From a virus: a stretch of 38,591 nt of DNA. The stretch spans positions 1 through 38,591 of IMG/VR virus record IMGVR_UViG_3300025137_000099. The stretch is one strand, 5' to 3'. A program made the translations under genes and the position numbers. Positions 9,820 through 34,627 of this stretch are shown one piece after another. The notes beneath the pieces were generated by a model. That model saw nothing but the letters and a program-made list of their open reading frames with translations. It ran no database searches and was not told the origin of the DNA. How positions within the stretch are numbered: position 1 is the stretch's first letter; each line of letters begins with the position of its first letter.

Positions 9820-10275
9820 CTAGACATGTTTAATATCATCAGGTTCAAGAATTGTAGCAATTACTTCGTCATCATTAATGATACGAACTTCACCGCCATC
9901 AATCTTAAACCTAGCACCAGCATATCGTCCAATGCACACCCATTGGCCCTCGAAACACCAAGGTTCCATATTCTCACCAAATTTATGTGGATCTTTATAT
10001 GCTAGTGGTCCTAATTTAACGACATACGCAACAACCGTTGCCAAGGCTTCTCGGTCTCGAACAGCGTCTGGAATGAAAACTCCCCCATCCGTAGTCGCTT
10101 TTCCAGCGTAAGGCATAACTAGGATACGCCATCCTGTTGGTTGAGGTAATCGTTCCTGTAGAGCCTCTTCCAAAAGAGAGGGGTCTAAAACTTTTTTATC
10201 AGCAGAAACGTATGCTGATGACACAGAAGATTTAGCTTCTGCTACGTGATCTGGTACGTATAAGGTCTTGGTCAT
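9820..10275 (-). CDS. GroES-like co-chaperonin (151 aa)
   Basis: Residues about 46-150 match the Cpn10 fold: PTGWRILVMPYAGK, TDGGVFIPDAVRDREALATV, VVKLGPLAYKD, EGQWVCIGRYAGARF and NDDEVIATI. The first 45 residues are an extension not present in cellular GroES. Phage co-chaperonins such as T4 gp31 replace GroES on host GroEL to fold the capsid protein. The location next to the scaffold and capsid genes supports that role here. The start overlaps the upstream stop by four bases (ATGA-type). Confidence 0.8.
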   Translation of the reverse strand: MTKTLYVPDHVAEAKSSVSSAYVSADKKVLDPSLLEEALQERLPQPTGWRILVMPYAGKATTDGGVFIPDAVRDREALATVVAYVVKLGPLAYKDPHKFGENMEPWCFEGQWVCIGRYAGARFKIDGGEVRIINDDEVIATILEPDDIKHV

Positions 10276-10660: not shown

Positions 10661-10963
10661 TTATCGCAGCTTCACATCTCTAGGTGACTTGCTGGATCCA
10701 CCGTCGTTGTCTTTCAGATACCTCAACAACATACGATCTGCATCAGATATTGCGCGACCACCCTCATCCATAATCATAGCTGCTCTAGCACGATCTGCCT
10801 CAGCCATTTGACCCCTATCAATTATTGTGCGAGCACGATCACCCTCATCCATAAGCATAGCTGCCCGAGCACGTTCTGCATTAGACATTTTGCGACCACC
10901 CTCACCCATAATCATAGCTGCCCGAGCACGTTCTGCATTAGACATTGCTCTACCATTTGCCAT
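10661..10963 (-). CDS. Repeat protein with RARAAM(I/L)M units (100 aa)
   Basis: Three copies of a unit close to SNAERARAAMIMGEGGR begin near residues 7, 26 and 53, and a degenerate fourth (SDADRMLLRYL) begins near 72. The DNA is almost identical between the first two copies. It ends with a YLKDNDG-type tail shared with the downstream neighbour. Basic amphipathic repeats could bind DNA or capsid protein, but I do not recognise the family. Confidence 0.6.
   Translation of the reverse strand: MANGRAMSNAERARAAMIMGEGGRKMSNAERARAAMLMDEGDRARTIIDRGQMAEADRARAAMIMDEGGRAISDADRMLLRYLKDNDGGSSKSPRDVKLR
10746..10946 (-). repeat. Coding tandem repeats (57-bp unit) in the RARAAM gene
   Basis: The plus-strand segment agctgcccgagcacgttctg occurs twice nearly unchanged, and a diverged form (agctgctctagcacgatctg) occurs a third time. 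Spacing is 57 bp, or 57 plus 24 bp where an 8-residue insertion falls. Confidence 0.8.
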
Positions 10964-11145
10964 TAGAATGTTCCTTGTCCACTGTTGCTGTTAAAATAAC
11001 GTCCCTTGAACTGAGCTTCTGTTCCTTTAATAAGCTGCTCGGATACACCACCCCGCTTACGTCTCTCAGGAGCATTCGGAGGAGGTGCATCGACCTCTGC
11101 CATAGTGATCTCCACAGGCTCGTTCATCATTTCAACTTCTTTCAT
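10963..11145 (-). CDS. Small hypothetical protein (60 aa)
   Basis: The protein has an acidic N-terminus (MKEVEMMNEPVEITMAEVD), a Pro/Arg-rich middle (PPPNAPERRKRGG) and a C-terminal GRYFNSNSGQGTF. A GGAGAG ribosome binding site precedes the ATG. It is the first gene after the portal and the parS-like palindrome. No family is recognised. Confidence 0.55.
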   Translation of the reverse strand: MKEVEMMNEPVEITMAEVDAPPPNAPERRKRGGVSEQLIKGTEAQFKGRYFNSNSGQGTF

Positions 11146-11166: not shown

Positions 11167-11188
11167 AATTGTTTCACGTGAAACAATT
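11167..11188. promoter_or_regulatory. parS: Perfect parS (ParB-binding) sequence within a 22-bp palindrome
   Basis: Positions 11170-11185 read TGTTTCACGTGAAACA. This is identical to the well-known bacterial centromere site parS bound by ParB/Spo0J. The palindrome extends three bases on each side and includes the last bases of the portal stop codon at 11187-11189. No run of T follows on either strand, so it does not look like a terminator, and a loopless palindrome is a poor RNA hairpin. No ParA or ParB gene is visible in the window, so the natural ligand would be host ParB or a protein encoded elsewhere. The match is seen directly. Binding is inferred. Confidence 0.75.
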
Positions 11189-13562
11189 ATCCCATTTTAT
11201 CGATTCTACTTTGATTAACCCGCGCACGAAGCATCGCAATGTCCTCATGAGAATCAATCTTTTCTCGGTCAATCTCCTGATTTTCTCCCACTCTGCGTTG
11301 GTCAAAGTCTAATCGTGCAGAGAACTCGTTAGCTTTACGCTGCATGTCCATCTCTTTGATGTCCAGTTCCTTGTCACGAAGCTCAACGAGAGGATCAACA
11401 CCAGACCCCGGAGGTGGCCCTAATAAAGGCATAATTTCTTGCATATACTCGGCAATTAACTGAGCAACCTCAGCCTCAACGTCCATTTGAGGCGGCTGCA
11501 TTCCCTGTGCCATCGCTTGCTCAGACATTACCATCGTCTTTGCCTGAACAACATTTCTCGCTTTAAGAGCGATATGCTCACATATATGAGCTTGTAAAAG
11601 ACCCAGTACGGGAGGAGTGCCAGCGGGAACAGGTGTTTTCATAAAGGCTATATGCGACATAATATGCGCATCGTGATCCTGTGTCGGAAACGCCTGTAAA
11701 TTCTCCTGAATCAGAGATCTGGCGTTCTCTATAGAAGGGTCTGTCGGCACCGGAGCTTTAGGCGCCGGAAGTATCGATTCAATGTTCTGTACACCTAATG
11801 CCTGATACATCCTTCTATATGCTTCAAACAGATTGTGTATCTGTGGGTTGGACTGCGCTAATTGAAGCTGCGTCTGAGCTATAGCAATCCTTTGAGATAA
11901 GGAGAAGATATTCGGATCCGATACAGGGATAATATCTACTCGGTCATCAAAGTCCGTTTGCTTGATAAGAGACTCCGCGCCATAGATATTATAAGGGTAC
12001 ATAGGGGGCAGAGACTCTTTAAAAATCTTTGCCAACATACGAAACTCTTGTTTCTGTGCATAGTGAAGCCTCTTGTGAATAGCGGACATCACTCGAGATC
12101 CTCTCTCAAGGAGGGCTACTGTTGTACCTACCGCCGCTTGTTGGTTGCCGTCACCAACTTGCATGTCTGCGATAGCTGCAAATCTTTGCCCTGCCTCGAC
12201 AACGAAGGATAATAAACCAAAGAGAGTCTGGCTCGGCTCCTTGTACGGAAGAGGCATAAGACTGTCGCGCAAAGCTCCTCCAGGAGCATCAATATCACGG
12301 AACTCCCCAGGAGCAAGAGGCTCATCAGCATCACGAATACGGATGCCCCTAGCTTTAAAGCCAGCAGGCAAGTTGGCCAAAGTACCAGCATCAATTAATT
12401 GCCTCATAATAGATGTTGCGGAACGTCCCAGACCTCCAATCATGTGAAGAAGCCCTAAACCATAAAATCCTAGCCCAGGAAGAAATTTGTAGTGCGTAAA
12501 GTACTGGTTCTTTCGGTAATATTCGTCACCCTCGTTCCAGTTTCTACGTATCGACAGAACCTTTGAGCTCCCCTCATCAATTGTAACAATGTAGGGAAGT
12601 TTAATGCCCGTCTCTTCTCCATCAACAGGATTAACGTGCTCAAAACCTTTTAGATCAAGGTTGATGTGAAACTCTATAAGAGTACAGTCCTCGCCATCCA
12701 CCGTCTTTTCAACGCCAACAAGCTCGCGCTCTTTCTCCCGTAGGCTGTCTTCCTGTTCGTAAGGGGAGAGCTCAATGTCCCTATAAAACCCAGCCGCCTG
12801 ATTCTTGCGAACATTGTTGATGTCCATGCGAACCACGTGAGCAATACGGGAAGCGGAATCCAGATCGGTAGCGTTGTACGGAACGACAAGATCGTCCGCA
12901 GGCACAAAACGTGCTACGGCCCTGTCCAGCATATCGTCAAAGTAAATCTTCTTAAACGCACTTCCAGCCAACGGTAAGTAAAACAAGAGACGGTCCATCT
13001 CGGGATCATATTCTTGCATAACGTTGAGTATCTCGTAGTTCATAAACTCCTTGACACGTTGCGCCTGATCCTCAACTTCGGGGGTAATCGCGCCTACAAT
13101 CTGTGTGCGAACAGGGCCAGAAGACGGCAAAAGTTCTTTATACGCTTGTGATTGAAACTGAGTAACAGCTTCGGCAATAACAGGGTGCGTCACTCCACTT
13201 GAACCGCGAAACGGTTCCTCTCGCTCTTCGTACTTAATACCAAGAAGACTTAATCCATCAGAGTAAGCATCTTCCCACTCCTGTCGGCCAGATTTGTCTT
13301 CCTCGTAGTAGTAAAGAAGATCTTGAGCAATCTCTGTTAAGTCCCTCTCGTCTAAAAGTTCCGCGAGATTAGCATCTTGTTCTGTCAGTAATTCTTCTTT
13401 AATCGAATCCTCAAAGTTGATAACTACGGAACCATCCTCTTCCTCAATAATCTCTGTGGGATCCTCAAGCTCCTCAATCTCAATAACTTCTCCCTCCTCA
13501 AGAAGATCCTCTCCTTGAGCCGGCATTGCTCCATCAATTAAAGAAATCGGGGTTTCAGCCAT
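11187..13562 (-). CDS. Portal protein, P22 gp1-like (791 aa)
   Basis: This is the dodecameric vertex channel through which DNA is packaged and ejected. The length fits the long P22-type portals. The first 70 residues are strongly acidic (EEGEVIEIEELEDPTEIIEE). The core includes REEPFRGSSGVTHPVIAEAV, LPLAGSAFKKIYFDDMLDRA, VRFVPADDLVVPYNATD-like segments, and the wing/stem region LGLLHMIGGLGRSATSIMRQ. The C-terminal quarter is helical and Gln/Met-rich (barrel-like). An AGGAAAA motif precedes the ATG. The gene sits between the small terminase-side late genes and the scaffold, the usual order. Confidence 0.85.
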   Translation of the reverse strand: MAETPISLIDGAMPAQGEDLLEEGEVIEIEELEDPTEIIEEEDGSVVINFEDSIKEELLTEQDANLAELLDERDLTEIAQDLLYYYEEDKSGRQEWEDAYSDGLSLLGIKYEEREEPFRGSSGVTHPVIAEAVTQFQSQAYKELLPSSGPVRTQIVGAITPEVEDQAQRVKEFMNYEILNVMQEYDPEMDRLLFYLPLAGSAFKKIYFDDMLDRAVARFVPADDLVVPYNATDLDSASRIAHVVRMDINNVRKNQAAGFYRDIELSPYEQEDSLREKERELVGVEKTVDGEDCTLIEFHINLDLKGFEHVNPVDGEETGIKLPYIVTIDEGSSKVLSIRRNWNEGDEYYRKNQYFTHYKFLPGLGFYGLGLLHMIGGLGRSATSIMRQLIDAGTLANLPAGFKARGIRIRDADEPLAPGEFRDIDAPGGALRDSLMPLPYKEPSQTLFGLLSFVVEAGQRFAAIADMQVGDGNQQAAVGTTVALLERGSRVMSAIHKRLHYAQKQEFRMLAKIFKESLPPMYPYNIYGAESLIKQTDFDDRVDIIPVSDPNIFSLSQRIAIAQTQLQLAQSNPQIHNLFEAYRRMYQALGVQNIESILPAPKAPVPTDPSIENARSLIQENLQAFPTQDHDAHIMSHIAFMKTPVPAGTPPVLGLLQAHICEHIALKARNVVQAKTMVMSEQAMAQGMQPPQMDVEAEVAQLIAEYMQEIMPLLGPPPGSGVDPLVELRDKELDIKEMDMQRKANEFSARLDFDQRRVGENQEIDREKIDSHEDIAMLRARVNQSRIDKMG

Positions 13563-13735: not shown

Positions 13736-13891
13736 TTAGGTTTTTTTCCTGTTTTTACCTTTGGGTGTTTTTGTTTTACCTTTAACTATACCCTTTAATG
13801 TTTTAGCTTGACCCGCATGTAATTTAGAAGCTTTTTTCAAACCTTTAATTACTTTTTTAACTTTAGTTTTGTTTTTTCTAGTTAAATCCAT
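13736..13891 (-). CDS. 51-aa Lys-rich protein
   Basis: The short frame ATG 13891 to TAA 13736 has about 20 Lys among 51 residues (TRKNKTKVKKVIKGLKKASK, then GIVKGKTKTPKGKNRKK). Its start overlaps the stop of the DUF6321-like gene as TAATG. It is one of five small, very basic proteins in this block and may bind virion DNA. The coding claim rests on overlap geometry and composition. Confidence 0.65.
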   Translation of the reverse strand: MDLTRKNKTKVKKVIKGLKKASKLHAGQAKTLKGIVKGKTKTPKGKNRKKT

Positions 13892-14190
13892 TAGCATTTC
13901 CACCTTCTACGAGCTTGCCGAATACGAGAGTTTGGATCATTTCTTGTTTTAGCAGAACTACGTTTCAACTGACCCAACGATCTAGCGCAATAACTTTTAC
14001 GGCGTTTTGCCGCCGCACTTCCTTTTTTAACCTTACCTGTAACAGCTGTCTTTAGTTTTGATCCGGGATTGGCTTTGCGGTGTGCGCGGACACCCGCTTT
14101 AGTCATCCCCGCACCTTTCTCGGTAGGACGATAGTTCGCACCCTTTCCTGTTGTCGTTTTCCTGATGGGCTTCTGCCTCTTCGTGGCCAT
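13891..14190 (-). CDS. DUF6321-like basic protein (99 aa)
   Basis: The pattern ANYRPTEKGAGMTKAGVRAH, RKANPGSKLKTAVTGKVKKG, AAKRRKSYCARSLGQ and DPNSRIRQARRRWKC is what I know as DUF6321, found in marine phages and cyanophages. The protein is very basic. No biochemical function is established. DNA binding or a virion-internal role would fit its charge. It is close-packed with neighbours and overlaps the next gene by one base. Confidence 0.8.
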   Translation of the reverse strand: MATKRQKPIRKTTTGKGANYRPTEKGAGMTKAGVRAHRKANPGSKLKTAVTGKVKKGSAAAKRRKSYCARSLGQLKRSSAKTRNDPNSRIRQARRRWKC

Positions 14191-16811: not shown

Positions 16812-17345
16812 TTACCTACAAGTTGCCTCTACACACCGTATTGACCAAACATACCACCCTGTCAAAACTATAAAACCACCTATGCCGACAAGCTGTGCAA
16901 AAATAATACTCCATTTCTTGAGAAACGCTACTGTCTCTTCACGTTCTTTCTTTTTAATCGCTGCTATTTCTTTGGCTTGTGCCTCTCGCTTCTCCTTACG
17001 TTCTTTGCGAAGTTTTTTTATTTCATCAACTGTTCCCGCGCCGTATTTTTTATCAATTTCGTTAAACAGGTTTTGAAGTGCAATTTCATTTTGTTTTTTC
17101 GTCATGACTTCATCAGCTATCTCGCTGAAGCTGTCTTGCTCTCCGTCATCATGAGCTCGCTGTCTCAGAATCTGTTGCTGACGGGTTTTAGGTTTTTTAG
17201 ATGGTAGATGACCCTCTGCGTTTTCCGCAGCCTCTTCATGCGCAAGAAGGTTGTCGATACCTTTATAAGCTGACTTGAGATCACTCGCGGTCTCTATTAA
17301 CTTCTTCGTCCCCGCGATTGCCAACGCTATGGTTGCTGGATCCAT
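16812..17345 (-). CDS. Coiled-coil protein with C-terminal membrane segment (177 aa)
   Basis: The N-terminus (MDPATIALAIAGTKKLIETA) is followed by a hydrophilic region, then a long Lys/Glu coiled coil (KKLRKERKEKREAQAKEIAA) and a C-terminal transmembrane helix (LVGIGGFIVLTGWYVWSI). Similar tail-anchored proteins occur in lysis-proximal regions of marine phages, but no function is known to me. Confidence 0.65.
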   Translation of the reverse strand: MDPATIALAIAGTKKLIETASDLKSAYKGIDNLLAHEEAAENAEGHLPSKKPKTRQQQILRQRAHDDGEQDSFSEIADEVMTKKQNEIALQNLFNEIDKKYGAGTVDEIKKLRKERKEKREAQAKEIAAIKKKEREETVAFLKKWSIIFAQLVGIGGFIVLTGWYVWSIRCVEATCR

Positions 17346-18310: not shown

Positions 18311-18621
18311 TATTTACCTTTAGCCATATAGGCGGTCATTCCCATATATGCACCTACCACCCCTGCCTGACCTATGTAGAAAAGACCGAATAAATCCGAT
18401 AGGGCCTTGATCCGGCCATCAGGGAAGATCGGCAAGAAAACCATCAACGTAAAACCAATCATGGAAATCATCGCCACCCAGGCCATTCGACGCTGGGCAT
18501 CCGCTTTCTCATGCTGATCACGAACTTTCGCTAACGCGAGCTCCTGATCGGAAACCACCCCATCGCCGTCAACGTCAAGCTCGTTATGCGAGCTGTCGTC
18601 CTGTAACTTCTTTTGAGCCAT
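18310..18621 (-). CDS. EF-hand membrane protein (103 aa)
   Basis: Residues 16-27 (DVDGDGVVSDQE) form a canonical calcium-binding EF-hand loop with all ligand positions present. Two hydrophobic segments follow (VAMISMIGFTLMVFLPIF and LFYIGQAGVVGAYMGMTAYM). Proteins with an N-terminal EF-hand and two membrane helices occur next to terminase genes in marine phages. A calcium-responsive holin or membrane protein is a possible reading. ATG 18621 overlaps the terminase stop. Confidence 0.7.
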   Translation of the reverse strand: MAQKKLQDDSSHNELDVDGDGVVSDQELALAKVRDQHEKADAQRRMAWVAMISMIGFTLMVFLPIFPDGRIKALSDLFGLFYIGQAGVVGAYMGMTAYMAKGK

Positions 18622-20084
18622 TAGTAATACTCCCGTGGCCTTGGACCGGAGACGATCTCATCGTCTTCCTCGTCACTGTCCAAACGCAAAAACCCTCCTC
18701 TACGATAACGTATAAGAGCCATCGACATACTATCACAATAATCATCGTGATCACCATTAGGAAATGCAGCGCACTCATCGATTACTTCTTCCGAGAATTT
18801 CATCTCAGGCGCCCACACCATCCCTGACTCAAAGATCGGCGCCACCATGTGCATCCGCGTGTGCTTATCACGGCCCTTGGACGGCGTATAATTTACCACA
18901 GGAATCCCCATCGTCCGTAACTCGTCCGTGAGCGGCGTACCCGTAGCCTTCGCCTCAATAAGAATCATGTCCGGTTCCCAGTAGTTATACTCCTCCAACG
19001 CCTTGTTCTTCAGCTCAGGGAAATCCCAACGGCCTCGATGCGCATCCATCAGGATAATATGATCAGAACCACCCTCCTCCGGCTGGAAAACACCCCAGGT
19101 CGTAATAGCCGAGTAATCCGCAGTCTCCTTCTTGCTAAACGCCGTATCGTAACTCTGTATGATATAACTCACAGGAGGAATGTCCTCTTTCTCCCAGACG
19201 TTCCACCACTCCTTCTTGATTATAGCACCCTCTTCAGCAGTCGGATTCTGCTGCCATTGAGCATTCCACTTGGCCAAGGACAACGAAGCCTTGACCTTTA
19301 ACAACTCATCCTTGTTCCAAAACTCCGGCCACAGAACATTGCCGCTCGGCAAAATAGCAGGGAACTCAACAACCTCCCATTGATCCGACATCTTGTCAGA
19401 ACTCTGAGCCTTGATCAGTTTACCCGTCAAATCCTTCAAAGACCACCGAGTCATAACAACTACAATAGACCCGCCCGGTTGTAATCGCTGACGGGGCCCT
19501 GACGTGTACCACTCGTAGGCGTTTTCCATAGCCGATTCAGATAAGGCGTCCTGTTCCGAATGCGGGTCATCAATGATAAGAAGATCAGCACCTCGGCCCG
19601 TAATCGCACCGCCCACACCCGCAGCATAATATTCGCCACCTTGACCCGTTTCCCAACGTCCCGCCGCTTTTGAATCCACGCGTAAATCCACATCTGGAAA
19701 AATATCCCTGTACCGTTCCTCCTCCATAAGGTTACGAACCTTACGGCCAAACCGCACAGCTAACTCAGATGTGTGCGTCGTCTGAATAATCTTCAACGCC
19801 GGATTCTTGCCGATCAACCAAGCAGGCAATAAATAACTCGCAAACTCAGACTTCGTATGACGCGGAGGCATATTAATAATGACCCGTGAACCAGGAGTCA
19901 CAGACAACTTCTCATATTGTTGCGCAACCTGCTTGTGATGAACACCCTCAATAAATCCATCGTAAACGTAATTGACAAACTCCATAAAAGAAGATTGAGC
20001 ACGAGCACGAATAGATAAACGGTTCTTCGCTTGCTCCAGAGCAAAGACCTCACGCAGTACCTCTTCAGGGGCGTTTAAGCTCAT
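18621..20084 (-). CDS. terL: Terminase large subunit (487 aa)
   Basis: The ATPase half has the Walker A-like MPPRHTKSE (residues about 72-80) and Walker B with acidic pair LLIIDDPHSEQD (about 168-179). The nuclease half carries SYDTAFSKKETADYSAITTW, LIEAKATGTPL and HDDYCDSMSMAL, the expected RNase H-like acidic residues. It packages DNA into the procapsid through the portal. I chose ATG 20084 (MSLNAPEEV). The longer frame to 20195 runs through a strong hairpin and starts with an atypical sequence. No clear ribosome binding site precedes 20084. The small subunit lies 5 kb away. Confidence 0.9.
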   Translation of the reverse strand: MSLNAPEEVLREVFALEQAKNRLSIRARAQSSFMEFVNYVYDGFIEGVHHKQVAQQYEKLSVTPGSRVIINMPPRHTKSEFASYLLPAWLIGKNPALKIIQTTHTSELAVRFGRKVRNLMEEERYRDIFPDVDLRVDSKAAGRWETGQGGEYYAAGVGGAITGRGADLLIIDDPHSEQDALSESAMENAYEWYTSGPRQRLQPGGSIVVVMTRWSLKDLTGKLIKAQSSDKMSDQWEVVEFPAILPSGNVLWPEFWNKDELLKVKASLSLAKWNAQWQQNPTAEEGAIIKKEWWNVWEKEDIPPVSYIIQSYDTAFSKKETADYSAITTWGVFQPEEGGSDHIILMDAHRGRWDFPELKNKALEEYNYWEPDMILIEAKATGTPLTDELRTMGIPVVNYTPSKGRDKHTRMHMVAPIFESGMVWAPEMKFSEEVIDECAAFPNGDHDDYCDSMSMALIRYRRGGFLRLDSDEEDDEIVSGPRPREYY

Positions 20085-20143
20085 AAGAGAAACGTACACG
20101 GAACATGGTTCAATGACAATTACAATGAAATATTTGTTCAAAA

Positions 20144-20171
20144 CACTGTATACACCTTCGTGTACACAGTG
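20144..20171 (-). terminator. Strong hairpin upstream of the large terminase
   Basis: CACTGTATACAC and GTGTACACAGTG pair with a single mismatch around a CTTC loop. On the minus strand the stem is followed by TTTTGAAC, so it could end leftward read-through from the early region or act as a binding site. It lies 60 bases before the chosen terminase start. Confidence 0.5.
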
Positions 20172-20301
20172 CGCGGCGGCGGCAGGCCGACCCACCCGAT
20201 ATCAGGACTCTGGCAAAAATCGGGAACCGGTCTAAGTACCTAGGCCCGATATCTCGCCCATTAGGCGACTAAAATAAAATGGTTCAAGGTGCATAAACTT
20301 A

Positions 20302-26729: not shown

Positions 26730-26959
26730 CATTCAAGGTTTCAGCATGGAACATGGACGGAACGGACATTGTGGAGATGGACGGTCCTATATCTCCTGAC
26801 AGGATTCATGAGTCTGAAATTGAACCTGTTGATTTACGGTGTCCACATTGCTTCAAGAAAAGCACAGTTGGTCACTTTAACTGGGACGCTTTAGTTTGCG
26901 GAGGCTGTAAGGAAGAGGTTGATCGTTTTGATTGGCTAATTCCTTTAGGTGAAAGATGA
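26726..26959 (+). CDS. Zinc-ribbon protein (77 aa)
   Basis: The N-terminal beta segment (MTFKVSAWNMDGTDIVEMDG) precedes a zinc ribbon LRCPHCFKKSTVGHFNWD and LVCGGCKEEVDRFDW. It is coupled at both ends by ATGA overlaps to a charged peptide and an XRE-type regulator. It might help the neighbouring regulator or bind nucleic acid. Confidence 0.6.
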   Translation: MTFKVSAWNMDGTDIVEMDGPISPDRIHESEIEPVDLRCPHCFKKSTVGHFNWDALVCGGCKEEVDRFDWLIPLGER

Positions 26960-27171
26960 TAGATACGAGACGTTATTCTCCGCTGGTTAATGAGCTCAAG
27001 CAGATCATGAAGGAATCAGGACGCACCAGTCTTAATATTGCGGAAGAGTCTGGTGTTTCTTCTAGTACGTTGAGCACATGGTTTCATCGTCACAATCCGT
27101 CACTTCCGAACTTTGAGAATGTACTTAGAGAACTGGGATATTCTTTGAAAATCGAGAAGAATGAAACTTAA
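26956..27171 (+). CDS. XRE-family (Cro/CI-like) transcription regulator (71 aa)
   Basis: Residues about 8-66 form a helix-turn-helix of the HTH_3 type: LVNELKQIMKESGRTSLNIA, EESGVSSSTLSTWFHRHNPS, LPNFENVLRELGYSLKI. Length is that of a DNA-binding domain alone, as in Cro. It is the only classical repressor-like protein in the window. It is a candidate to bind the CC..GG dyads in the promoters at 20302, 22186, 22971 and 26387. It overlaps the methyltransferase start by 11 bases. Confidence 0.75.
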   Translation: MIDTRRYSPLVNELKQIMKESGRTSLNIAEESGVSSSTLSTWFHRHNPSLPNFENVLRELGYSLKIEKNET

Positions 27172-27994
27172 AACCTTGGACCTGTTTTCTGGGATCGGTG
27201 GCTTTGCGCGAGGGCTCGAAGCCACCGATTTTTTTGAGACGAGCTGCTTTATAGAACAAGAGCCCTACTGTCAGGCCGTACTGAAACATCATTGGCCCGA
27301 CGTTCCCGTGCTAGGAGACATACGCGATGTCCGAAGATCCGACCTACCCGACCCAGACCCCGATGTTATTTGCGGAGGATTCCCTTGCCAGCCATTCAGT
27401 CACGCGGGACGGCAGCCCAAGGCTCAAGACGACCCCCGTCACCTCTGGCCAGAGATGTTTAGGCTTATCAGGGAATGCCGGCCCACTTGGGTTGTTGGAG
27501 AAAACGTTGCTGGAATCATCAACTTGGGCTTGGACGAAGTACTCGCTGACTTGGAGAGCGAAGGCTACGCCACAAGGACGTTTAATATTCCAGCTTGCGC
27601 GGTTGGCGCCCCGCACATCAGGCAGCGGATTTGGGTTGTTGCACACGCCGACAGCCAAAGCGAACCAGATGGCGCCTTCGATGGCAACGCGGGACAGCGG
27701 CAGTTGGGGTTTGGGTTTATGGCCGACACCCAACGCAAGAGAGAAGGGCGGCGGGGAGTATCAGGACCCGGAAAAGATAAAAGCAAGAATGGAAAAGGGT
27801 CATCAGGCCAACTTGGGGGACATGGTGAAGCTGGACCAGAAGAGTGGTGGGAAGTTGAGCCCTCTGTGGGTCGCTTGGTTAATGGGCTACCCAACCGAGT
27901 ACCTCAACTCCGTGCCTTGGGAAACTCCATCGTCCCGCAAATCGCAGAAGAAATCGGAAACGCAATAAAGGTAGCAGAACAATGGAAGCCATAA
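27161..27994 (+). CDS. DNA (cytosine-5) methyltransferase (277 aa)
   Basis: Motif I LDLFSGIGGFARGLE (residues 6-20), motif IV ICGGFPCQPFSHAGRQ with catalytic Cys76, motif VI GENVAGI (113-119), motif VIII RQRIWVVAHA (154-163) and motif X RALGNSIVPQIAEEIGNAI near the C-terminus are all present. The enzyme should therefore be active. It transfers methyl from S-adenosylmethionine to cytosine C5, probably to shield phage DNA from host restriction. The target recognition region (about 165-245) is short. No partner endonuclease lies next to it. Residues 58-68 (RRSDLPDPDPD) carry a GACCC-like repeat. A long second frame is embedded (27327-27968). Confidence 0.9.
   Translation: MKLKTLDLFSGIGGFARGLEATDFFETSCFIEQEPYCQAVLKHHWPDVPVLGDIRDVRRSDLPDPDPDVICGGFPCQPFSHAGRQPKAQDDPRHLWPEMFRLIRECRPTWVVGENVAGIINLGLDEVLADLESEGYATRTFNIPACAVGAPHIRQRIWVVAHADSQSEPDGAFDGNAGQRQLGFGFMADTQRKREGRRGVSGPGKDKSKNGKGSSGQLGGHGEAGPEEWWEVEPSVGRLVNGLPNRVPQLRALGNSIVPQIAEEIGNAIKVAEQWKP
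27327..27968 (+). CDS. Overlapping-frame protein within the methyltransferase gene (213 aa)
   Basis: This frame lies entirely inside the methyltransferase gene in another frame and is open for 213 codons. Its ATG has an ideal AGGAGA ribosome site nine bases upstream (27313-27318). The product has motifs I associate with phage proteins usually annotated near cytosine methylases: SLTWRAKATPQGRLIFQLAR, PRTSGSGFGLLHTPTA, LWPTPNAREKGGG and LSPLWVAWLMGYPTEYLN. Function is unknown. Methylase-linked or anti-restriction roles are possible. Seen: frame, ribosome site, motifs. Inferred: translation. Confidence 0.65.
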   Translation: MSEDPTYPTQTPMLFAEDSLASHSVTRDGSPRLKTTPVTSGQRCLGLSGNAGPLGLLEKTLLESSTWAWTKYSLTWRAKATPQGRLIFQLARLAPRTSGSGFGLLHTPTAKANQMAPSMATRDSGSWGLGLWPTPNAREKGGGEYQDPEKIKARMEKGHQANLGDMVKLDQKSGGKLSPLWVAWLMGYPTEYLNSVPWETPSSRKSQKKSETQ

Positions 27995-28973: not shown

Positions 28974-29167
28974 GACGAGTACGTCTTTTTTAAGAGAGAC
29001 GCATAGAACTTGCGGATCTGTTTGTCGGACGGGTTCTTCTTGGCTTCGTCCACCAGAAAAGATATTTGCGATCCAGCGGATCGAAAGTTTGGTTTCGCTA
29101 TATTCATAAGATCGTTGTATGTGGCAATGGGTACGGCCACGCTTTTGTATTTCGTAATGTCAGGCAT
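28970..29167 (-). CDS. Small helical protein (65 aa)
   Basis: The sequence MPDITKYKSVAVPIATYNDL and RSAGSQISFLVDEAKKN looks like a ribbon-helix-helix-type or antitoxin-like small protein, where KSVAVPIATYNDLMNIA would be strand plus helix. ATG 29167 has AGGGAAG upstream and overlaps the nuclease stop by eight bases. The RHH reading is tentative. Confidence 0.55.
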   Translation of the reverse strand: MPDITKYKSVAVPIATYNDLMNIAKPNFRSAGSQISFLVDEAKKNPSDKQIRKFYASLLKKTYSS

Positions 29168-29811: not shown

Positions 29812-31257
29812 TTATCCTAACCACTCCCGTATATTCTCCCCCATTACCATTGTGGCAATGTCCATTTTGCTTCTCAGCGCCTTTACGATCTTCTCGTCAA
29901 TCGTTCCTTCCGCAATCATGTCGATGTACGTGACGCTACCCTCCTGACCGATACGATGCGCTCTGTCTTCCGATTGCATACGAACAGCCAGATCAAAACT
30001 GTTAGCGAAATAAATAACGGTGTTCGCCGCCGTCAGCGTAATTCCGTATCCACCTGTCTGTGGATTGCCAACGAAGAATCGAGCCTTGCCGTTCTGAAAT
30101 CTCTCAATGGCCTTGGTCCGTTGTTCGTCATCCGTGTCACCGTAATACGTGACCACCTTGGTATTGCCATACGCCTTGGTCAATGCCGCCGTGATTCGCT
30201 TCATGTCGTAACGGAACCGTGACCAGATAATCACCTTGCCATCGACTTCCTCAAGGCAGTCCAGAAGTTCTTGGATTCGGTTATCGGGAATCTCTATGAG
30301 CTCACCATCGTCAGGCTTGGTGTGACCAGACAAAACCTGTTGCAAGCGGAGCAACTGGGTCATGGCATTAGGAGTCGTCATAAACTTGTCATCACTCAAC
30401 TCAGCAAGGGCGAACTGCTTGAGCTCCTCATAAATGCGTTTCTGTTCCGGCGTCAGTGTGATGTTCCGTTGCGTATAGATCTTGTCGGGCAGATCAAGAC
30501 ATTCACTCTTGAGAATACGTGAACTGAACGTCTTGAGAGTTTCGGACAGCTCTTCAAGATTTCTGTAACCGACAACGCGATTAAAGCTATGACTCCCAAA
30601 AGTTTGGCGCTTCATGACCGCATATCGATATTGAAACTGAAAAAAGTTATCACCGCAATCGCCCAGTAAAGTCTTGTCCAAAAAGTGACACTGCGACCAC
30701 AAATCCATGGGAGACTGTGTCACGGGGAACCCCGTAAGAATTCTTCTGTACTTCGCCAGAGGAGACATCTTGAGGACAGCCTTGGTTCGTTTGGCTTTTG
30801 GATTTTTGATTGCTGTGCTCTCGTCCAGAACCAAAAACGCCTCTGACATCTCAAGAACTTTCGCCAGATACTTCTGACCCTTGACCGTGGACAGGGCTTC
30901 TACATTCATGACGAGGATCCGAAGATCATCGCCTTCATGCGGCATTGCAAACGATGTAAGCTCTTGTTTTTCCTTAACTTTAGGCGAAGGGGTCCAGGCT
31001 ACTATAGAACGCTCAATACGGTCTGGAAGGTGTGCGGGTATCTCTGTCTTTGACCAGTTACGGTAGACCCCCTTGGGTGCGATCACAACCAAAGTATCGA
31101 TATTCCCTGCCTCGAACAAAGCGCCGGCATTGTCGATTGTGACCTTGCTTTTCCCTGTCCCCATCTCGAGAAACAGTCCCCAGTTAATTTTGCTCCAGCT
31201 TTCCTGAAGTACTGTCCGCTGATGTCCATAGGGGTCTGTTTTGTATTCGTATGTCAT
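29812..31257 (-). CDS. SNF2-type DEAD-like helicase/translocase (481 aa)
   Basis: Walker A EMGTGKS (residues 31-37), Walker B VLDESTAIKN, motif III LTGFPVTQSPMDLW and C-terminal lobe motifs ITLTAANTVIYFANSFDLAV and QSEDRAHRIGQ are all present. This is an SF2 ATPase that translocates on double-stranded DNA. Related phage proteins act in replication, repair or chromatin-like remodelling. I chose ATG 31257 because the promoter's likely start point is near 31277, downstream of the alternative ATG at 31281, and AAGAGA precedes it. Confidence 0.9.
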   Translation of the reverse strand: MTYEYKTDPYGHQRTVLQESWSKINWGLFLEMGTGKSKVTIDNAGALFEAGNIDTLVVIAPKGVYRNWSKTEIPAHLPDRIERSIVAWTPSPKVKEKQELTSFAMPHEGDDLRILVMNVEALSTVKGQKYLAKVLEMSEAFLVLDESTAIKNPKAKRTKAVLKMSPLAKYRRILTGFPVTQSPMDLWSQCHFLDKTLLGDCGDNFFQFQYRYAVMKRQTFGSHSFNRVVGYRNLEELSETLKTFSSRILKSECLDLPDKIYTQRNITLTPEQKRIYEELKQFALAELSDDKFMTTPNAMTQLLRLQQVLSGHTKPDDGELIEIPDNRIQELLDCLEEVDGKVIIWSRFRYDMKRITAALTKAYGNTKVVTYYGDTDDEQRTKAIERFQNGKARFFVGNPQTGGYGITLTAANTVIYFANSFDLAVRMQSEDRAHRIGQEGSVTYIDMIAEGTIDEKIVKALRSKMDIATMVMGENIREWLG

Positions 31258-31283
31258 TTTTCTCTTGCCATCAATGTCCACTA

Positions 31284-33097: not shown

Positions 33098-34627
33098 ATG
33101 ACGGAAGCACAGAGATATTTTGACCTTTTTAAAGGGTTTAAGGGAGCGCATGGTCAGACAGAGGTTCTGGACCATCAGCGCCACGGCAAGCAGAAAGCCA
33201 AGAGCTTCATTGTCCGTGAACCGTTGACTCTGGAATTGGTTCAAGGCCACCTTGATGGCCAGCAAGGAATCGGTAGCATACCTATCGATGAGGATAACAG
33301 TTGCAGCTTCGGGGCATTGGACATTGACGATTACAATCTGGATCTGATTGCTCTCTGTAAGAAGTCTGCCAAGCTAAAATTACCTTTGACCCTGTGCCGT
33401 TCAAAGTCGGGTGGCGCTCATTTATACATATTTTTATCTGAGAAAGTGCCAGCGGTGGAACTCAAGGACAAGCTGGCTGAGTTCGCATCTGCTTTAGGTT
33501 TCGGCACATGTGAGATATTTCCCAAACAAGAAGAGGTCATCGTAGAGCGCGGTGACGTAGGAAACTTTATCAATTTACCTTACTTTCAAGCGGAGATTAC
33601 TACACGATTCGCTTACGACAGGAATGGTAAGGAGCTGACGTTATCGGAGTTTATGGATCTGGCAGAGAAGAGCAAGATCACACTCAAGCAGTTGAGGGAC
33701 TTTGAATTAGGATCTAACTCAGATGTTTTGCCTAATGGTCCACCGTGCTTGCAGCAGCTTACGGAGCGGGGAATTCCAGAGGGTGGACGTAATAATACGA
33801 TGATTAATATCGGTGTGTATTACAAACTATCGTCGCCAGAGAATTGGAAAGATCTTCTTGAGAAGCATAACCAGAACTACTGCAATCCATCGCTGCCAGC
33901 CAAAGAGATCGTGACGATACAGGAACAGCTGGAGAAGAAAGAATACTTCTATACGTGTAAACAGGAACCGATACAGAGCCACTGCAATAAGGCGCTGTGC
34001 AGATCCAGACAGTTTGGTGTCGGTGGCAGTCAGTCCTTTCCTACGATTGGAGGGTTGACCGTTGTCTTGTCGGAACCTCCAGTTTGGTTCGTGGACGTTG
34101 ATGGGTCGCGGCTGGAGCTTACGACCAAGCAGCTACAGATGCAGATGGACTTTCAACGGGCTTGCATGGAACAGATGTACCAGATGCCAGCACGTATGAA
34201 GGATCCTGATTGGCGCGACATGATCGACAATCTGCTGACTACAGCAACGCATATACAGGTGCCAGAAGAATTAACAACCAAGGGGCAGTTTAACGAACTT
34301 TTAGAGACGTTCTGCACCTCTCGTATACGTGCAACTTCGGAAGAGGAGCTTTTAACAGGTAAGCCATGGACCGTGGACGGTCATACGTACTTCAAGCTGA
34401 GTTCTCTACAGGAGTTCTTGAAGCGTAAAGGATTTACCAACTATTCACGTGGGCAGATTACGGAGCGGTTGAAGGAGCTCAACAACGGTCAGGAGTCGGA
34501 CAAGCAGTATCGACTAAAGGACAACAAGGGCAAGTGGAGAACGGTTAGGGTCTGGTTTGTCCCGGAGATGGAAGAACTAGAAGTTGACTTGAAAAAGCCA
34601 ATCTTCTCTGAGGAGGTGCCGTTTTGA
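33098..34627 (+). CDS. Archaeo-eukaryotic-type primase, TOTE-like (509 aa)
   Basis: The catalytic core has GALDIDDY (residues 73-79, metal ligands), SKSGGAHLY (102-110) and GNFINLPYF (155-163), typical for AEP primases of the TOTE/primpol group. A helical segment (GGRNNTMINIGVYYKLSSPE) and a Cys cluster (CKQEPIQSHCNKALC) follow. The C-terminus ends in KKPIFSEEVPF, an SSB-like acidic tip. It would synthesise primers for PolA and the helicase encoded next. ATG 33098 has no ribosome site, but an in-frame stop at 33062 excludes a longer start. Confidence 0.85.
   Translation: MTEAQRYFDLFKGFKGAHGQTEVLDHQRHGKQKAKSFIVREPLTLELVQGHLDGQQGIGSIPIDEDNSCSFGALDIDDYNLDLIALCKKSAKLKLPLTLCRSKSGGAHLYIFLSEKVPAVELKDKLAEFASALGFGTCEIFPKQEEVIVERGDVGNFINLPYFQAEITTRFAYDRNGKELTLSEFMDLAEKSKITLKQLRDFELGSNSDVLPNGPPCLQQLTERGIPEGGRNNTMINIGVYYKLSSPENWKDLLEKHNQNYCNPSLPAKEIVTIQEQLEKKEYFYTCKQEPIQSHCNKALCRSRQFGVGGSQSFPTIGGLTVVLSEPPVWFVDVDGSRLELTTKQLQMQMDFQRACMEQMYQMPARMKDPDWRDMIDNLLTTATHIQVPEELTTKGQFNELLETFCTSRIRATSEEELLTGKPWTVDGHTYFKLSSLQEFLKRKGFTNYSRGQITERLKELNNGQESDKQYRLKDNKGKWRTVRVWFVPEMEELEVDLKKPIFSEEVPF

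Follow-up and report, generated by a model that had tools for sequence, protein, structure and literature searches.

An orphan chromosomal-type parS site in a podovirus-like phage lineage and its probable use of host ParB

Background

The closest precedent for the site described here is the integrative element SGI1. It carries parS sites for the ParB of an IncC plasmid (PMC10954446), and is thus a mobile element whose parS uses the ParB of another replicon. Phage-plasmids such as P1 and N15, the cyanophage Mic1 (PMC7156551) and the extrachromosomal mycobacterial prophages (PMC7157519) likewise have a partition site on phage DNA, which they combine with their own ParA and ParB. In a third kind of relationship, CtrA, which regulates the cell cycle of the host, controls phages of alphaproteobacteria (PMC9437464).

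The chromosomal ParABS systems of B. subtilis, Caulobacter and Hyphomonas use the 16-mer TGTTTCACGTGAAACA as parS (PMC7022226), and the chromosomal form in Pseudomonas is TGTTCCACGTGGAACA (PMC7022226, PMC5450999). Surface plasmon resonance on a chromosomal ParB showed that changes at the distal positions of the site and a transition at positions 5-12 are tolerated (PMC5450999).

The DNA analyzed here, referred to as the window, is a whole stretch of 38,591 nucleotides (IMG/VR virus record IMGVR_UViG_3300025137_000099). Its site is identical to the chromosomal 16-mer. The likeness extends to the tolerated variants, changes at position 1/16 and the 5/12 transition, and to the Pseudomonas-type variant found in Pseudomonas phages. 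Unlike chromosomal parS, the phage site lies on a replicon without parA or parB, away from any GC-skew turning point, and is usually present in a single copy. SGI1 is an integrative element that exploits a plasmid ParABS, whereas the phage lineage carries the parS of a host chromosome and its use is predicted. In contrast to the phage-plasmids, neither ParA nor ParB was found in the window family. As with the CtrA sites, the phage would place itself under a cell-cycle protein of its host; CtrA is, however, a transcription regulator, whereas ParB slides along DNA as a clamp and serves chromosome segregation. No report of an orphan chromosomal parS in phages without ParB was found in a literature search that lay mostly outside subscription papers and preprints, and an earlier description may exist.

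The phage and its site

The window comes from a marine, podovirus-like phage with an SU10-type portal, a terminase, a family A DNA polymerase and a TOTE-type primase. Its gene order agrees with that of the Pelagibacter phages HTVC027P and HTVC023P, phage 023Pt_psg01 and phage DSL-LC04. These genomes are 57-62 kb and near-complete relatives 56-61 kb, so the window represents about 60-65% of the phage, and the missing part is covered by two close relatives (G003 and G007). Genes for a C5-cytosine methylase, a SNF2-like helicase and the TOTE-type AEP primase are at 27161-27994, 29812-31281 and 33098-34627. A host search of a genome collection returned only phage contigs inside metagenome-assembled and single-cell genomes and so gave no host assignment, and the window has no tRNA.

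Direct reading of the window bases confirmed the exact chromosomal consensus and its perfect 22-bp palindromic extension, AATTGTTTCACGTGAAACAATT, both of which had been reported in the initial annotation (Table 1). No second copy occurs in the window even when three mismatches are allowed. The odds of a random match had been put at about 1 in 100,000, which is correct; the expectation for an exact match in the window is 9e-6 for uniform bases and 1.1e-5 after correction for composition. The site is a single copy in the late operon, with the portal gene as its upstream neighbor in the direction of transcription. The palindrome overlaps the TAA stop codon of that gene (minus strand, 11187-11189). 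The GroES-like gene closes a hypervariable region of small genes within which the site floats. A DUF6321 gene directly follows the site in about half of the relatives, but not in the window, where the next gene, encoding 60 amino acids, has no match in Pfam or PHROG. The site is at no turning point of the GC skew, and a link to a replication origin is therefore unsupported.

Table 1. Position of the parS site and of nearby genes in the window
Feature	Position	Strand	Evidence or remark
GroES-like co-chaperonin	9820..10275	-	PHROG 3188, E 7.3e-13
60-aa gene, end ...RGRYFNSNSGQGTF	10963..11145	-	downstream neighbor of the site; many relatives have a member of this gene family in that place
Perfect 22-bp palindrome around parS	11167..11188	.	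outer 3 bp on each side not conserved among relatives
Orphan parS, exact canonical chromosomal site TGTTTCACGTGAAACA	11170..11185	.	kept in 34/40 dereplicated relatives
Portal protein gene (SU10-type, 791 aa)	11187..13562	-	Pfam PF23899, E 3.8e-11; PHROG 1216 portal, E 3.8e-46
DUF6321 basic protein gene	13891..14190	-	Pfam PF19846
Large terminase subunit	18621..20195	-	Pfam PF17289

Conservation among relatives

A search with the portal yielded 80 relatives, most of which have a parS-like site at varying distances, and clustering of their portal genes at 95% nucleotide identity gave 40 clusters. A site with two or fewer mismatches is present downstream of the portal in 34 of the 40 clusters and is exact in 26. 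Absence from close relatives had been named beforehand as grounds for rejecting the interpretation; with 34 of 40 dereplicated relatives keeping the site, it was not refuted. It is the most widely shared 16-mer of the region (26 clusters, as compared to 11 for the best unrelated 16-mer), and no other palindromic 16-mer occurs downstream of the portal in any representative. In whole records, 19 of 20 from the window clade carry the site, most of them exactly once, and none carries the reversed pattern. It is absent from the available sequence of one subclade (L130, L134 and L146), either through loss or through relocation out of the contig.

The position of the site is not fixed. The initial annotation placed it at the portal stop codon, which is accurate for the window but does not hold as a rule: among relatives the offset from the portal ranges from +5 to about +2060 bp, and the sites float among intergenic gaps. 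The site usually occupies the space from the stop codon of one gene to the start of the next, often 2 nt before the ATG, and this gap is often only about 16-20 bp long. The gene that follows belongs to one of two unrelated families, the ...GRYFN...GTF gene (the window type) or the DUF6321 gene. Switches between neighbors were counted on a tree of the portal protein, since clustering of contexts linked by blastn merged nearly all sites through shared genes. The tree requires seven changes per neighbor label, of which 5-6 are forced by well-supported branches. Thus the element persists while its surroundings reshuffle. This pattern of conservation indicates that the site is kept by selection, not accident.

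A scan of viral contigs for exact parS gave at least 120 matches, and 54 of the contigs listed encode relatives of window proteins, mostly of the terminase or the portal. Wider relatives have parS near the large terminase gene, often just ahead of its start; among the matches listed in the exact-parS contigs the site is often upstream of terL, sometimes by only tens of bases. One separate group of phages (L016, L043, L052 and L074; also L290, L291 and L307) has two to five exact parS near terL, an arrangement that resembles a bacterial parS cluster.

The distribution also has limits. In cultured HTVC027P, CGTTTCACGTGAAACA lies between gp31 and gp32, and in the clade closest to it, which is mostly low in GC, only 5 of 79 loci have the site. 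A Pelagibacteraceae single-cell genome has a canonical ParB and parS, and since the clade nearest to HTVC027P is nearly devoid of the site in spite of this, not every phage of this kind requires it. As the terL relatives near HTVC027P mostly lack it, the claim is confined to certain clades. The HTVC023P record, from a pelagiphage without canonical parS, has an intergenic parS-like palindrome, TGTTACACATGTAACA, with a CATG center and A5/T12 (29137-29152; 17138-17153 in locus L203).

Variant positions and parS forms in other phages

The fetched contigs contain 35 distinct sites with a single mismatch. Position 1/16 accounts for nine of the changes, 5/12 for 20 and the central CG for six, while half-site positions 2, 3, 4, 6 and 7 show none. 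All 20 changes at 5/12 are T-to-C or A-to-G transitions. Thus 29 of the 35 fall at positions where ParB tolerates variation, and the chance of 29 or more doing so is 1e-12. The central changes C8T or G9A, found in about 15% of window-clade lineages, lie outside those tolerated in PMC5450999 and count against recognition by host ParB.

The site is no peculiarity of the window phage; many other phages carry parS as do the relatives. A 30-nt parS query matched 343 of 50,697 phage records, an upper figure because some of those labeled Listeria or Enterococcus have the look of bacterial contigs, and the reversed palindrome matched four. The leading genera were Listeria, Microbacterium, Arthrobacter, Gordonia, Bacillus and Lactobacillus phages. 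Among the INPHARED records OR846xxx-OR849xxx, 'Listeria phage LM 4-11-1', 'LM 4-14-1' and 'Enterococcus phage Efs 1-1-1' are unannotated, have several parS each and resemble bacterial contigs. The Pseudomonas form matched 102 records, with Pseudomonas phages first at 21.

Eleven cultured phages were analyzed as whole records. Each has one to six sites and none has the reversed pattern; ten of the eleven lack ParB_N. The 13 sites of three Pseudomonas phages include no canonical one (seven are of the Pseudomonas form and six are hybrids), and an Alcaligenes phage also carries the Pseudomonas form. Phage vB_PpuM-KoPa-4, which infects Pseudomonas putida KT2440, has three sites. In seven phages of Listeria, Lactobacillus, Ruegeria and actinobacteria all 14 sites are canonical. 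As the cultured phages were found by form-specific queries, only the sites that a genome has in addition to its first provide an unbiased test of form, and with these extra sites alone the difference has a Fisher P of 5e-5. The form tracks the host in the cultured phages.

Two other cases were noted. Microbacterium phage Metamorphoo (NC_047988) has a parS at 43534-43549 inside a gene annotated as DNA-binding protein, with 49702-49959 also noted; as this phage does encode ParB_N, the system may be self-contained. Bacillus phage phi29 (EU771092, 17239-17260) and its relatives have a near-parS (about 91% over 23 nt) within gene 16, the gene of the packaging ATPase.

ParB and ParA

The window has no match to ParB_N, HTH_ParB or ParA (AAA_31), which bears out the initial annotation. 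Because it covers only part of the phage, the genomes of relatives were also needed to establish the absence of ParB. ParB_N (PF02195) and HTH_ParB (PF17762) are absent from 40 family and outgroup records (the window and 39 others), and the ParA-type ATPase (PF13614) from 37, complete genomes included in both sets; the ParA control was positive in 14 of 14 genomes. A self-contained ParABS of the phage-plasmid type is thus unsupported, as neither parB nor parA is on the replicon in the records searched. Among other viral contigs with parS, 47 of 50 lack ParB_N. Five marine bacterial genomes have one ParB each, with a canonical parS within about 4 kb on the same contig in four.

Discussion

The site is probably a functional orphan parS that loads the ParB of the host chromosome on phage DNA, with the likeliest benefit in cis. 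Capture of host ParB had been suggested at the outset, and predicted binding now draws support from four sides: conservation of the site, variants of the kind ParB tolerates, lack of ParB and ParA in the family, and a site form that follows the host in cultured phages. After injection, the host chromosome's ParB would recognize the palindrome, load as CTP-dependent sliding clamps and spread over the adjacent phage DNA. A partition complex of the host would thus form on the phage genome, which itself encodes none. Host ParA and the ParB-recruited SMC condensin could then hold the phage DNA with the nucleoid or the origin region and organize it during replication; if division precedes lysis, both daughters would inherit it.

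The same predicted binding could serve the opposite end. Replicating copies of parS might act as a decoy that titrates host ParB, and thereby ParA and SMC, and stalls segregation and division, so that the benefit would be in trans. Some phages do have three to six sites, and one group up to five exact ones near terL. Titration should however favor many sites, and window-clade records mostly have exactly one, the minimum for a cis-acting loading site; in P. aeruginosa a single parS suffices (PMC4368675). With exactly one site in most members, a role in cis (tethering, SMC organization or inheritance) is favored, and titration appears unlikely.

It is more doubtful still that the palindrome is the operator of a DNA-binding protein encoded by the phage and shares the parS sequence by coincidence. 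The window encodes a small helix-turn-helix protein (26956-27171, HTH_3), and many proteins of the phage have no known function. Coincidence does not readily explain why the same 16-mer is found in Listeria, Lactobacillus, actinobacterial and Ruegeria phages and the Pseudomonas variant in Pseudomonas phages, nor why the variant positions agree with ParB tolerance. The site also has no fixed place among the genes, and a scan of the surrounding 800 bp gave nothing promoter-like.

It is highly improbable that the palindrome acts as an RNA hairpin in the late transcript, be it a terminator, a processing site or a translational operator. A stem of 6-9 bp could form, window-clade variants mostly spare it, and in many relatives the site ends 2 nt ahead of an ATG. 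The hairpin is weak, however, with a mean of -4.9 kcal/mol, and its loop is mostly conserved as well. The T5C change is common without a change in its partner, and one genome, G017, has both 5/12 single variants. Furthermore, other phages have the identical sequence in gaps that are not part of the late operon. An intrinsic terminator, with its GC-rich stem and T run, was rejected: the stem is weak, there is no T run (about 2.3 T in the next 8 nt), a terminator scan made no call at the site, and Rfam gave no match.

Some of the parS-rich public 'phage' records (Listeria and Enterococcus, OR84xxxx) do look bacterial, but for the window clade chance, host contamination or mis-binned chromosomal DNA is refuted to the point of being negligible by an expectation of 1e-5, the absence of the reversed pattern, the conservation in 34 of 40 clusters and a location that, in independent samples, is flanked by the portal and GroES genes of the phage.

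Loading of host ParB in cis thus stands as the preferred explanation, and the single site per record in most relatives fits what is expected of a cis-acting loading site. A511 and its relatives have a virulent lifestyle; if this holds, they cannot be accounted for by a partition role confined to lysogeny. With somewhat less assurance, we lean towards a widespread strategy in which phages of many bacterial phyla, virulent ones included, dock on host ParB, ParA and SMC via a 16-bp host-matched site and no protein of their own.

If host ParB does load on these sites, virulent phages would exploit chromosome segregation with 16 bp and no gene, a host interaction that would be invisible to protein-based annotation. 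Phage genomes would be given a defined place in the cell and phage replication would be tied to ParA and SMC. The form of the site, following host ParB, would also provide a hint of the host from sequence alone.
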